Part shown: piece after piece, positions 57,109-61,933 of the stretch
How the letters are laid out: every line of letters begins with the position of its first letter
How positions within the stretch are numbered: position 1 is the first letter of the stretch
Source of the DNA: Cognatilysobacter segetis
GTDB lineage: Bacteria; Pseudomonadota; Gammaproteobacteria; Xanthomonadales; Xanthomonadaceae
Direction: 5' to 3'
DNA: 64,000 bases
NCBI RefSeq assembly: GCF_004359965.1
Contig: NZ_SMRQ01000003.1
Coordinates: 1-64,000, forward strand
Program-made: the position numbers and the translations under genes
The notes under the pieces: generated by a model
Database searches by the model: none
What the model was told of the DNA's origin: nothing
The model's input: only the letters and a program-made list of their open reading frames with translations

Positions 57109-57132
57109 ATGTCGACGAGCGTCGCCCGATGA
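57109..57132 (+). other. Short leader ORF (MSTSVAR) coupled to the glycosyltransferase
   Basis: A GGAGGG Shine-Dalgarno stretch (57094-57099) sits nine nt before an ATG that encodes seven residues and stops with a TGA overlapping the glycosyltransferase ATG (57129) in ATGA form. The better ribosome site belongs to this mini-ORF, so the large gene may be translated mainly by re-initiation. Confidence 0.4.
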
Positions 57133-59219
57133 CCTGGGCCGGGGTCCGCTTCTCCTTCTTCCGCGTCCTGGGTTTGCTCCGCCGCACCGGCATCAGCCTG
57201 CGTGCACGTGGCCTCGGCGGCACCTGGACGCGCGTGCGCGACCACCTGCACCCGCGACCGGTCGTGCCCGCCGCCTCGCTCTACGCGCCGCCACGGTCAC
57301 CGTTCGCGCCGTTCGCGCTCGACACGTCCGACGCACCGCGGGTCAGCATCGTCATCCCCGTATACGGCCAGTTCGCCCATACGCTCGACTGCCTGCGCGC
57401 GCTGGCCGCCCATCCGCCGTCGACGCCGCACGAGGTGATCGTGGTGGACGATGGCTCCACCGACGAGACGCCGGCCTGCCTCCCGCGCATCGACGGCCTG
57501 CGCTACCACCGTCGCGCGCAGAACGGTGGATTCATCGCCGCCTGCAACGACGGGGCCTCGCTCGCGCGCGGCGACACGCTCGTATTCCTCAACAACGACA
57601 CGGTCCCACAGCCCGGCTGGCTCGAGGCCTTGCTCGCCACCTTCGAGACGCGCCCCGGCACCGGCCTCGTCGGCGCGCAGCTGCTGTATCCCGACGGCCG
57701 GCTCCAGGAAGCCGGCGGCCTCGTGTTCAACGACGGAAGCGGTTGGAACTACGGCAAGTTCGGCGATCCTGCCGACCCCCGCTACGCCTATGCCCGCGAC
57801 GCGCATTACTGCTCCGGCGCCGCGATCGCCGTGCCGCGCTCGGTCTTCGAGCGACTGGGCGGCTTCGATGCCCGCTACGCGCCGGCCTATTACGAGGACA
57901 CCGACCTCGCCTTCGGCGTGCGTTCGCTCGGGCTGGGCGTGCGCTACCAGGCCGCCTCTCGCGTGGTCCATTGCGAGGGCGTGACATCGGGTACCGACGT
58001 CACCCAGGGCATGAAGTCCTACCAGGTGGCCAATCGCGGCACGTTCGCCGCGAAGTGGGCGCCGGCGCTCGCATCCCAGCCCGCCCCCGGCGGCGACGTC
58101 GACGCCGCGGCCTGGCCGGTGAAGCCCACGCTGCTCGTGATCGACGCGCTGACGCCGGACACCACGCGCGACTCGGGCTCGCTGCGGCTCGTGAACCTGA
58201 TGCGGCTGCTGATGGACGACGGGTGGCATGTGGTGTTCCTGCCGGCCAACCGCCGGGACGCCGGCGCCGCGACGCAGGCACTCCAGGCGTTGGGCGTCGA
58301 AGCCTGGCATGCGCCCTACGCGCCGCGTCCCCCCGCCTGGTTCCGCCGCCACGGCCCGCGTTTCGATGCGGTGATCCTGTGCCGGCACTACGTGGCCCGT
58401 GAATTCCTGCCCCTGGTGCGCCAGCACGCGCCACGCGCGCGTCTGCTGTTCGACACCGTCGACCTGCACTTCCTGCGCGAGCGGCGCGGCGCGGAGGCGA
58501 GCGGCGACGTCCAGGCGCTGCGCACCGCCGCCCGCACCCGCGACCTGGAGCTGGACGTCATCCGTCGCAGCGACGTCACGCTCGTGGTCAGCGAGGTCGA
58601 GCGCGCGCTGCTCGCGCAGGAAGCGCCGCAGGCGCGGGTCGAAGTCGTGTCCAACGTGCACGAGGTCGCCGGGCCGGGCCTGCCGTTCGCGCAACGCCGC
58701 GACGTCGTGTTCGTCGGCGGCTTCCGCCATCCGCCGAACGTCGACGCGGTGCTGTGGTTCGCCCGCGACGTGTGGCCGACGGTGCACGCACGACGACCGG
58801 ATCTCGTGTTCCACTGCATCGGCGCCGACGTGCCGCCCGAGATCGCGACGCTGTCGTCGGTCGGAGGCATTCGCGTGCACGGGCACGTGCCCGACCTCGA
58901 TCCGTTCATGGACGGCGCCCGCATCGCAATCGCGCCGTTGCGCTTCGGCGCGGGCGTCAAGGGCAAGGTGAACCTCAGCATGGCGCACGGGCAGCCGGTG
59001 GTCGCGACGTCCTGCGCCGTCGAAGGCATGCACCTGCGCGACGGCGAGGACGTGCTCGTCGCCGACGCGCCCGACGCGTTCGCCGACGCGCTGCTGCGCC
59101 TCTACGACGACGAAGCGCTGTGGTCGCGGCTGGCGGCCCACGGCCTGGACAACGTGCGGCGCCACTTTTCGGCGGATGCCGCGCGCGACGCAGTGCGGCG
59201 CGCGCTCGGAACGGACTGA
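57129..59219 (+). CDS. Two-domain glycosyltransferase (GT2 fused to GT4-like)
   Basis: A 696-residue protein. Residues about 70-300 form a GT-A, family 2 domain: RVSIVIPVYGQF, EVIVVDDGSTDETP, ARGDTLVFLNNDTVPQPGWL (the D-x-D-type site) and APAYYEDTDLAFGVRS. Residues about 330-690 form a GT-B domain of the glycosyltransferase 1/4 group: FVGGFRHPPNVDAVLWF, then RFGAGVKGKVNLSMAHGQPVVAT with the nucleotide-sugar Glu-rich end EGMHLRDGEDVLVADAPDAF. Such fusions build O-antigen, glycan or glycoprotein side chains by adding two sugars in turn. No polysaccharide cluster surrounds it; it is flanked by mrcB and relA. Acceptor unknown. Confidence 0.88.
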   Translation: MTWAGVRFSFFRVLGLLRRTGISLRARGLGGTWTRVRDHLHPRPVVPAASLYAPPRSPFAPFALDTSDAPRVSIVIPVYGQFAHTLDCLRALAAHPPSTPHEVIVVDDGSTDETPACLPRIDGLRYHRRAQNGGFIAACNDGASLARGDTLVFLNNDTVPQPGWLEALLATFETRPGTGLVGAQLLYPDGRLQEAGGLVFNDGSGWNYGKFGDPADPRYAYARDAHYCSGAAIAVPRSVFERLGGFDARYAPAYYEDTDLAFGVRSLGLGVRYQAASRVVHCEGVTSGTDVTQGMKSYQVANRGTFAAKWAPALASQPAPGGDVDAAAWPVKPTLLVIDALTPDTTRDSGSLRLVNLMRLLMDDGWHVVFLPANRRDAGAATQALQALGVEAWHAPYAPRPPAWFRRHGPRFDAVILCRHYVAREFLPLVRQHAPRARLLFDTVDLHFLRERRGAEASGDVQALRTAARTRDLELDVIRRSDVTLVVSEVERALLAQEAPQARVEVVSNVHEVAGPGLPFAQRRDVVFVGGFRHPPNVDAVLWFARDVWPTVHARRPDLVFHCIGADVPPEIATLSSVGGIRVHGHVPDLDPFMDGARIAIAPLRFGAGVKGKVNLSMAHGQPVVATSCAVEGMHLRDGEDVLVADAPDAFADALLRLYDDEALWSRLAAHGLDNVRRHFSADAARDAVRRALGTD

Positions 59220-59221
59220 GT

Positions 59222-61384
59222 TCAGGCGCGCCGCGCCTGCTCCACGCCGGGCAGCGCGGCGAGCTTGCCGAGCACGTCGGTCAGCTGGCCGTAGTCGGCC
59301 ACGCGCAACCGCAGCTGCAGGACCACCTGCGTGCCGCCGCGAACGTGCTCGGTATTCATAGCGGTCAGGGCGACGCCGGCCTGCGCGACGACGTTGGTGA
59401 CTTCCTTGAGCAGCCACTTGCGGTCGAGCGCGACCAGCTCGACGCCCACGTCGTAGGCGCTGCCGCCCCGTCGCCATTCCACCGGCAGGACGCGTTGCGG
59501 CTCGGCCGCGGCGAGCCGCTGGAACGCGGCGCAGTCGGGGCGATGCACGCTCACGCCGCGGGCCCGCGTGAGATAGCCGGCGATCGCCTCGCCCGGCAGC
59601 GGCTGGCAGCAGCGCGCGATCTGCACGAGCAGGTTGCCGACCCCCTCGACGGTGAACTCGCTCGCCCGCCCGCCGCGCGGCTTGCGTACGGCCGGAGCCG
59701 GCGCCGGCGTGGCCGCGACCGGCTCGCGCGTCGCGCGCTCGTGCTCCAGCAGCACGCGCCCGACCTGGTGCGGCCCGACGTCGCCGAGCGCGACCAGCAC
59801 GAACAGGTCGGCATCGGTCGCCGCATGGAAGCGGTCGCGCGCCGGCGCGAGGCTCGCGTTGAGCAGCGACAGCCGGCGCAGCTCCTTTTCCAGCATCTCG
59901 CGTCCGGCCTGTTCGTTGCGCGCACGGTCGAGCCGGTTGAACCACGTGCGCACCTTTTCGCGCGAGCGCGGGCTGGCGAGGAAGCCGTTCGACGCGACGA
60001 GCCAGTCGCGCCGCGGCTCCGACACCTTGCCGGTGAGGATCTCGACGTGGTCGCCGCTGCGCAGCTTGTGGTCGAGCGGGACGATGCGGCCGTCGACCTT
60101 CGCGCCGCGGCAGCGATGCCCCACGTCCGTATGCACGTGGTAGGCGAAATCGAGCGGCGTCGCGCCCGCCGGCAGGTCGACGACCTCGCCCTTGGGCGTC
60201 AGCACGTAGACGCGGTCCTCGAGCAATTCGCTGTCGAGTTCGCCCGCGAGCGCGCCCTCCTCGCCCGCGCTTTCCAGCAGGCGGCGCATCCACGCGATCT
60301 TGCGTTCGAACGCGGCGCTGGCCGTGGCGCTGGCGCCGCCGGGTCCGCCTCCTTCCTTGTACTTCCAGTGCGCGGCGACGCCGAGCTCGGCCTGCCGGTG
60401 CATGTCGTGCGTGCGGATCTGCACTTCCAGCGTCTTGCCTTCCGGCCCGACCACCGCGGTGTGCAACGAGCGGTAATCGTTGCGCTTGGGCCGCGCGATG
60501 TAGTCGTCGAACTCGCTCGGGATCGGCACCCACGTCGCATGCACGATGCCGAGGGCCGCGTAGCAGGCCGCCACGTCGTCGACCAGCACGCGCACCGCGC
60601 GCAGGTCGTAGAGCTCGCCGATCGGGACGTGCTTGCGCTGCATCTTCTTCCAGATGGACTAGATGTGCTTGGGGCGGCCGGCCACGTCGGCATGGATGCC
60701 CTGCGCCTCCAGCGCCTCGCGCAGCGTCGACTTGACGCTCTCGATGTACTGCTCGCGCGCGACGCGCTTCTCGTCGAGCAGGCGCGCGATCTGCTGGTAC
60801 GTCGCGGGCTCGAGGAAGCGGAACGCGAGGTCCTCCAGCTCCCACTTGAGCTGCCAGATGCCGAGCCGGTTCGCGAGCGGTGCGTGGATGTCGCGCGTCA
60901 ATGCCGCAAGTGCGCGGCGTTCGTTTTCCGGCAACGACGCGGCCAGCCGCATGCGCGCGAGCTGGCGCGCCAGCAGGATCGGCACGACGCGCAGGTCGCG
61001 CACCATCGCGAGCAGTAGCCGGCGCAGGCCTTCGCTGCCGCGGCCGCCCGGATGCCGCGCATGCAGCGTCCAGACCGGCTCGGCGGCCCGCTGGCCCTCG
61101 ACCAGCGCGGCGACGGCGGGAAAGCGCGACATGAACGTCTCGCCGAGCGCAGCCGCGAGGCCCGGCCAGTCGTGCACGAGCGACGCCGCGATGACTTCGC
61201 CATCGGCGCCGAGCACGGCCAGCGAGCCGAGCGTGGAGTCCACGCGCGCCCACCCGTCGTCGTCGAGCGCGGGCGCCTCCGCGGTGGCCAGGGCGTCGCG
61301 CAGGGCCGCACCGAGCGCACCCGCGGCGGGAAGGGCGAGCGCATCGGCGAGGCGGTGCGTCGTCGGAGGGCGCGGCGCGTTCAT
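59222..61384 (-). pseudogene. relA: RelA (GTP pyrophosphokinase), interrupted by in-frame TAG
   Basis: Full-length frame of 720 codons matching RelA (E. coli 744). Codon 242 is TAG (60659-60661) where the family has Tyr in the motif GRPKHIYSIWKKM; sequence on both sides continues in the same frame (RPKHI, then SIWKKMQRKH). Residues 1-241 are the degenerate hydrolase domain, lacking the catalytic His-Asp pair. The 3' part holds the synthetase (YRSLHTAVVGPEGKTLEVQI), TGS (VYVLTPKGEVVDLPAGATPL), zinc-finger-like (IARCCQPLPGEAI) and ACT domains. An ATG at 60643 could restart the 473-residue C-terminal piece. Either a true null or split gene, or a base error. A bifunctional SpoT elsewhere would be needed. 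Confidence 0.88.
60659..60661 (-). other. Premature TAG codon within relA
   Basis: On the coding strand the codons run CAC ATC TAG TCC ATC TGG. A TAC or TAT to TAG change is a single substitution. No frameshift accompanies it and the flanking protein is well conserved. Confidence 0.9.
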
Positions 61385-61441
61385 CGAAAAGCCGGGACGG
61401 AGCGATCTACACTAGCCGGCATCCGTCCGGAGGAACAGTTC

Positions 61442-61933
61442 ATGGCCCTTGCCCGTTCGCGCGCCCTCGTCCTCGCCGTCGCGTTGGCCTGCGCCTCGCT
61501 TGCGGCGCACGCCGCGCCGCCGATCGAGCAGCAGATGACGCCGGAGCAGTTCAAGGCCGCGGGGCTAAACAAGCTGTCGCCGCAGGAACTCGCGAGCCTC
61601 AACACCTGGCTCGGCCGCACGATCGAAACGGAAACCGCGAAGGCTGCCGTCGCCGCGAAGAAGAAGGTCGAGGACGAGAACCGCGGCTTCTTCAACTTCG
61701 GCTCGTCCGAGCCGGTGAAGTCGGCGATCACCGGCGAGTTCCGCGGGTTCGCGATGGGCCGTACGTACACGCTCGACAACGGGCAGGTGTGGCGCCAGAT
61801 CGACGAGGCCAGCCTCGCCGGCGTGCGCAAGACCCATCCCGAAGTGGTGATCTCGCCGAGCGTGATCGGCAATGCCTGGTACATGGGCATCAAGGGCTAC
61901 GGCACGCGCGCGAAGGTGATGCGCGTCAAGTGA
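61442..61933 (+). CDS. Small exported protein of unknown function
   Basis: 163 residues with a signal peptide (MALARSRALVLAVALACASL, cleavage after AHA). The mature part starts with PPIEQQMTPEQFKAAGLNKLSPQELASLNTWL, a helix-turn element, then a short charged helix (KAAVAAKKKVEDE). A likely SH3-like beta region follows: SAITGEFRGFAMGRTYTLDNGQVWRQIDEASL and GNAWYMGIKGYGTRAKVMRV. I recognise this pattern from conserved hypothetical secreted proteins of Xanthomonadaceae but no function. Strong GGAGGAA lies six nt before the ATG. It is divergent from relA and convergent with hrpA. Confidence 0.85.
   Translation: MALARSRALVLAVALACASLAAHAAPPIEQQMTPEQFKAAGLNKLSPQELASLNTWLGRTIETETAKAAVAAKKKVEDENRGFFNFGSSEPVKSAITGEFRGFAMGRTYTLDNGQVWRQIDEASLAGVRKTHPEVVISPSVIGNAWYMGIKGYGTRAKVMRVK

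Follow-up and report, generated by a model that had tools for sequence, protein, structure and literature searches.

SpoT is reported to be the main mediator of ppGpp levels in Xanthomonas campestris, with RelA in a supplementary role, and serine hydroxamate led to a slight rise of ppGpp in the wild type and in a relA deletion mutant alike (PMC8693919). In Escherichia coli, truncating relA null alleles were found in clones that carried a spoT deletion (PMC4154780). In Leptospira biflexa Paris, the rel gene has become a pseudogene by a change of CAA to TAA, so that there is already a precedent among sequenced genomes for a one-base nonsense mutation in an RSH gene (PMC3153485).

We analyzed a stretch of 64,000 nt (the window), which lies within contig C3 of a Xanthomonadaceae draft genome of 2.94 Mb (133 contigs, 99.65% complete, contamination estimate 3.97%). 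The assignment to this family follows from the best hits that bear a name, which are Luteimonas, Lysobacter, Stenotrophomonas, and Xanthomonas. It contains a relA gene on the minus strand (61384-59222), the translation of which comprises 720 codons and a final stop codon, i.e. 721 codons in all. The reading frame is open apart from one internal stop, codon 242, which is TAG (60661-60659, minus strand) and lies within GRPKHI*SIWKKM (the asterisk marks the stop); the surrounding codons read CCC AAG CAC ATC TAG TCC ATC TGG AAG AAG ATG. The gene is thereby divided into a 5′ ORF of 241 codons, which ends in the TAG (60659..61384, minus strand), and a 3′ ORF of 473 codons, which starts at the conserved Met of SIWKKM (59222..60643, minus strand). 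The translation of the minus strand reproduced the original prediction in this respect, i.e. one in-frame TAG in a relA that is otherwise open over 720 codons, with fragments of 241 and 473 residues. The distance to the next ATG had been given as 12 nt after the stop and has to be corrected, as this ATG begins 15 nt after the TAG.

When the two ORFs were searched separately with Pfam, the 241-residue part gave HD_4, and the 473-residue part gave RelA_SpoT, TGS, and ACT_4. When the TAG was read through as Tyr, HD_4 (residues 48-177), RelA_SpoT (236-345), TGS (392-451), and ACT_4 (642-719) were found, i.e. the order of HD, synthetase, TGS, and ACT domains that is expected of RelA. The break had been placed between the pseudo-hydrolase and the synthetase domains. 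However, the synthetase domain PF04607 (60350..60679, minus strand) begins at residue 236 on read-through, and therefore the stop does not lie in an inter-domain linker, but inside PF04607, after its sixth residue. These six residues, which include Arg237 of GRPKH, are part of the 5′ ORF together with the pseudo-hydrolase, while the 3′ ORF encodes the remainder of the synthetase domain, TGS, and ACT.

The best match among solved structures was E. coli RelA. The EFDD of the synthetase domain, its EXDD motif, aligns with the EFDD of E. coli and is kept in 13 aligned relatives. The Asp in NDYRSLHT, a Gly in E. coli, is likewise common to 13 aligned relatives and was rejected as a sign of decay. 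With the NCBI RelA model NF008124 a score of 624.6 bits was obtained, which is below the cut-off of 728 but does not set the gene apart, because none of the 149 genomes of the family passes this cut-off; the cut-off of the broader model TIGR00691 is exceeded (528.6 versus 499.2). RelA is one uninterrupted polypeptide, which this gene does not encode, and because of the TAG at codon 242 the copy was classed as broken, not working. A glycosyltransferase gene with GT2 and group-1 domains (57129..59219, plus strand; ORF list and Pfam) is convergent with relA and separated from its stop codon by 2 nt, so that relA is probably the last gene of its own transcript. The relA frame of three congeners extends without a stop far 5′ of the start (61384-61764 of the window, minus strand), so that open frames of 849-890 codons result; this extension is probably the shadow of the divergent gene.

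The locus resembles the null alleles of E. coli (PMC4154780; relA1, PMC7434938) in that one lesion lies before or within the synthetase domain of an otherwise normal relA. The truncated polypeptides of the E. coli clones had 67 to 377 residues (PMC4154780), compared with 241 here. The E. coli alleles come from laboratory strains, and the clones of PMC4154780 had lost spoT, whereas SpoT is open here. A further difference is that the present allele has been seen once, in a draft genome. Like the rel pseudogene of L. biflexa Paris, which was also noted from genome data, it is a long RSH gene with a single nonsense substitution; that strain, however, is listed without any other RSH (PMC3153485), whereas SpoT remains here.

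Most likely, the stop in relA either knocked out the gene very recently or is a sequence error of one base. With modest confidence, we favor the view that an ordinary relA, present in a single copy, became a null allele very recently through one nonsense substitution at codon 242. The position of the stop suggests what the consequences would be. GRPKHIYSIW is conserved up to E. coli RelA (5iqr, 5kps), which also keeps the downstream RAVR. In RelSeq, R241 and R269 sandwich the adenine of ATP, and in RelTt, R249 and R277 sandwich AMP (PMC7983052). R237 and R265 of the relA studied here are 28 residues apart, as are both of these pairs, and the stop falls between them; judged by motif and spacing, and not by an alignment with RelSeq, they would be the ATP-sandwiching arginines. 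Because the stop separates R237 from R265, neither fragment should hold a whole ATP site. Taking the base as real, a single substitution would have converted codon 242, which encodes Tyr in congeners, into TAG, and translation would end after 241 residues, probably by efficient termination. The N-terminal fragment would keep the pseudo-hydrolase and R237, one of the two ATP-binding arginines, and the C-terminal fragment, if made at all, would keep R265 and the rest. Neither would be expected to synthesize (p)ppGpp alone, so that RelA activity would probably be lost and the cell would rely on an intact SpoT. That the strain lacks ppGpp synthesis upon amino-acid starvation, as had been proposed, is uncertain, since the relA deletion mutant of X. 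campestris responded to serine hydroxamate as the wild type did (PMC8693919).

Codon 242 was compared across 40 relA loci of relatives (L005-L044), two of which are partial (L015, L022) and two of which apparently stem from one organism (L023 and L035). It encodes Tyr in 33 loci (TAC in 29, TAT in four), Phe in five, and Thr in two; 13 of these loci were aligned in full with relA and have 12 Tyr and one Phe. The Tyr that had been described as conserved is therefore usual, but not invariant. No stop was present in the aligned part of any of the 40 loci. Three congeners have TAT TCC at the site of TAG TCC, and relA is without a stop in all seven congeners that were aligned, the copy in G003 ending at a contig end. 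The original prediction regarded a Tyr codon in close relatives as evidence of a sequencing error. The codon is indeed mostly Tyr, but the relatives are other species, so that their Tyr reveals which residue the ancestor had but does not, taken alone, demonstrate an error. A query from the C-terminal part of relA matched all 60 genomes searched (this one included), and no internal stop was found among the matches listed for these genomes with this query, which begins 3′ of the TAG site.

The family was surveyed with the RelA model NF008124 in 149 genomes, with matches of at least about 440 bits listed. A match of 517 bits or more was found in 140 genomes, including this one, and one stop was flagged in 14 of these strong matches. 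In the 13 other flagged genomes the match reaches profile position 742-744, i.e. the natural terminator. In three of them (G006, G022, G028) relA is open over the aligned length, and the other ten showed no stop with the shorter model TIGR00691, the match of which begins only at 78-92 in four cases (G079, G122, G148, G010). The sole internal stop found among the 140 strong matches is that in the relA of this genome.

The nine genomes without a match of that strength (G021, G060, G071, G096, G110, G113, G129, G162, G168) were inspected along with G076 and G052. Two of them contain a broken relA together with a stronger, SpoT-like match that is open, as is the case here. In G110, relA (C5:311836-313837) lies in two frames, owing to one frameshift; in the single-contig genome G129, relA (C1:131900-133890) lies in three frames, with two frameshifts and, like the present gene, an in-frame TAG, albeit at a different place. 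Both Xanthomonadaceae belong to other genera, and their lesions differ from the single nonsense codon described here, with more decay in G129. Because of G110 and G129, broken relA genes, one of them with a TAG, can be said to occur elsewhere in the family; their lesions may be sequence errors, too. A single RSH match was found in G168 (99% complete, 350 contigs), in which relA may be missing or unassembled. The remaining genomes without a strong RelA match have partial matches, several of them at contig ends.

The constraint on relA equals that of its sister genes. The dN/dS values (NG86) of relA versus four congeners (G007, G002, G005, G006) range from 0.15 to 0.25, compared with 0.11 to 0.22 for five pairs among these congeners. 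Versus the outgroup L009 the values are 0.22 for relA and 0.23 for G007, and versus the outgroup L012 they are 0.35 and 0.29, respectively. Of the columns that are invariant in the other rows, 110 precede the stop and 296 follow it; relA has unique changes at 1 and 5 of these, respectively (6 of 406 in total), and the totals of the four congeners in the same comparison are 6, 4, 2, and 7. These counts and the dN/dS values support the earlier statement that no other decay is visible in relA. A single lesion in a gene that is open in close relatives is what characterizes a recent nonsense allele, and both features were found. Because the constraint is undiminished, relA either was lost very recently or contains a wrong base, and the result fits both equally well. 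A rough Poisson bound dates the loss to the final 3-4% of the branch, if a branch dS of 0.2-0.25 is assumed. An old pseudogene was rejected, since dN/dS and unique changes are as in the sisters and a second lesion is absent.

Apart from relA and spoT, the genome yielded no match to PF04607, and neither a second relA nor a small alarmone synthetase was found in it. The spoT gene is spread over the contigs C95 and C105, the ends of which overlap by 731 identical bases and are unjoined. No stop is present within either part, and the first 620 aligned residues, with 422 invariant columns, show 0 unique changes at these (the last part, on C105, was checked for stops only); by its sequence, SpoT looks intact. 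In E. coli, loss of relA is known to compensate for damage to SpoT. Such compensation is unsupported here, as SpoT is open and free of unique changes at these columns, and hence no pressure of a spoT loss on relA is visible. Because SpoT is reported to be the main mediator of ppGpp in X. campestris, a loss of RelA could be tolerable in Xanthomonadaceae.

The possibility that comes next to a real mutation, and to which we assign somewhat less than an even chance, is a base-call or consensus error in the draft assembly, or a variant carried by the minority of a mixed population, in which case the real relA would be intact and working. A one-base difference suffices, and the full constraint and the stop-free relA of the seven aligned congeners (cut by a contig end in G003) are in line with it. 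The state of the assembly also points in this direction, i.e. the 133 contigs and the contamination estimate of 3.97%, the spoT gene broken across two overlapping contigs, and the lack of a tRNA-Ile(GAT) and a tRNA-Ala(TGC) among the genes found. Furthermore, the conserved phoH, the gene before ybeY (L286:1766-3262, contig C9), is 2 nt shorter in a GC repeat (about 2875-2895) than its counterpart in a congener, which is intact and encodes a PhoH protein. The frameshift results in an ORF that continues into ybeY, and YbeY is all that Pfam detects in this fused ORF. The assembly thus holds at least one other broken conserved gene. The loss of 2 nt in a GC repeat is typical of sites of sequencing errors, but it is an indel, and therefore a different kind of error from a substitution.

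A scan of codon usage over about 1.0 Mb of the genome argues against frequent errors of the latter kind. It requires at least 25 clean codons on each side of a stop, detects nonsense only, can miss cases, and is uncalibrated on other genomes. The scan revealed 12 candidates for in-frame interruptions, and relA had the highest score, suggesting that its interruption is more than chance. In ten of the 11 others, a start codon follows 0-5 codons after the stop, and by eye they resemble neighboring genes in one frame; the eleventh (L123:5648) has a short open stretch on either side (25 and 35 codons). In the scanned 1.0 Mb or so, no convincing nonsense gene other than relA was found, and substitution errors are therefore not common there; the view of an assembly full of nonsense errors obtains no support from the scan. 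In tblastn searches for broken genes, antisense shadow ORFs of this high-GC genome blurred the results. One of these searches gave 345 gene-like regions with many flags, and we therefore relied on the codon-usage scan. Three loci with apparent stops were dismissed, two being antisense to open ORFs and one having its stop 5′ of the gene start. A search of a plasmid collection gave no match.

Of the three options offered in the original prediction, recent loss and a wrong base both stand, and the third, a gene that works as two polypeptides, is weak. It would require that translation restarts at the ATG, 15 nt downstream, and that both fragments assemble into an active synthetase, which we regard as very unlikely. 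Both ORFs are open and the ATG is near the stop. However, the Met of this ATG belongs to a conserved motif (SIWKKM) and is kept in 40 of 40 relA loci; the ATG was therefore inherited and did not evolve for a restart. By eye its start context is weak, as the purine stretch GGAAGAAG directly abuts the ATG and no spaced ribosome-binding site is present. The cut runs inside PF04607, through the ATP pocket and not through a linker, and the split occurs in no other strong RelA match of the family survey, so that the features of a split gene are lacking. In E. coli, relA1 (an IS2 insertion) reportedly yields two complementing fragments.

Readthrough of the amber codon, by a suppressor tRNA or by programmed recoding, has an equally small probability. 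It would be compatible with the normal constraint on the remainder of relA, and the residue inserted need not be Tyr, because Phe and Thr also occur at position 242 in relatives. Yet none of the 52 tRNA matches typed by ARAGORN, one of which is a contig-end partial matching tRNA-Asp, has a CUA anticodon; the set is incomplete, since it lacks tRNA-Ile(GAT) and tRNA-Ala(TGC), which usually sit in rRNA operons. A tandem array of tRNA-Asp(GTC) genes with a period of 181 bases was noted on two contigs (seven copies on C33:137-1299, L181; two and a partial copy on C61:1-434, L183), perhaps one longer array split by the assembly. Against readthrough speak also the U that follows the TAG, as a stop codon followed by U is an efficient termination context, the lack of another convincing in-frame TAG in about 1.0 Mb, and the use of TAG as the terminator of 15 of 171 genes with readable ends, a set that includes some antisense shadow ORFs. 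The same 15 genes leave a change of the genetic code unsupported. That two RelA chains rebuild one ATP pocket across the break, as a natural split RSH enzyme whose activity needs their association, is very improbable.

The locus thus gives no evidence that the enzyme is split or that the codon is recoded, and the broken relA is an ordinary broken gene that involves no new mechanism. If the stop is an error, it calls for caution in reading physiology from one base of a draft genome. If the very recent nonsense mutation is real, it is a further natural null allele of relA, in a family in which SpoT may carry most of the ppGpp synthesis, and it would suggest that RelA is dispensable in some habitats.
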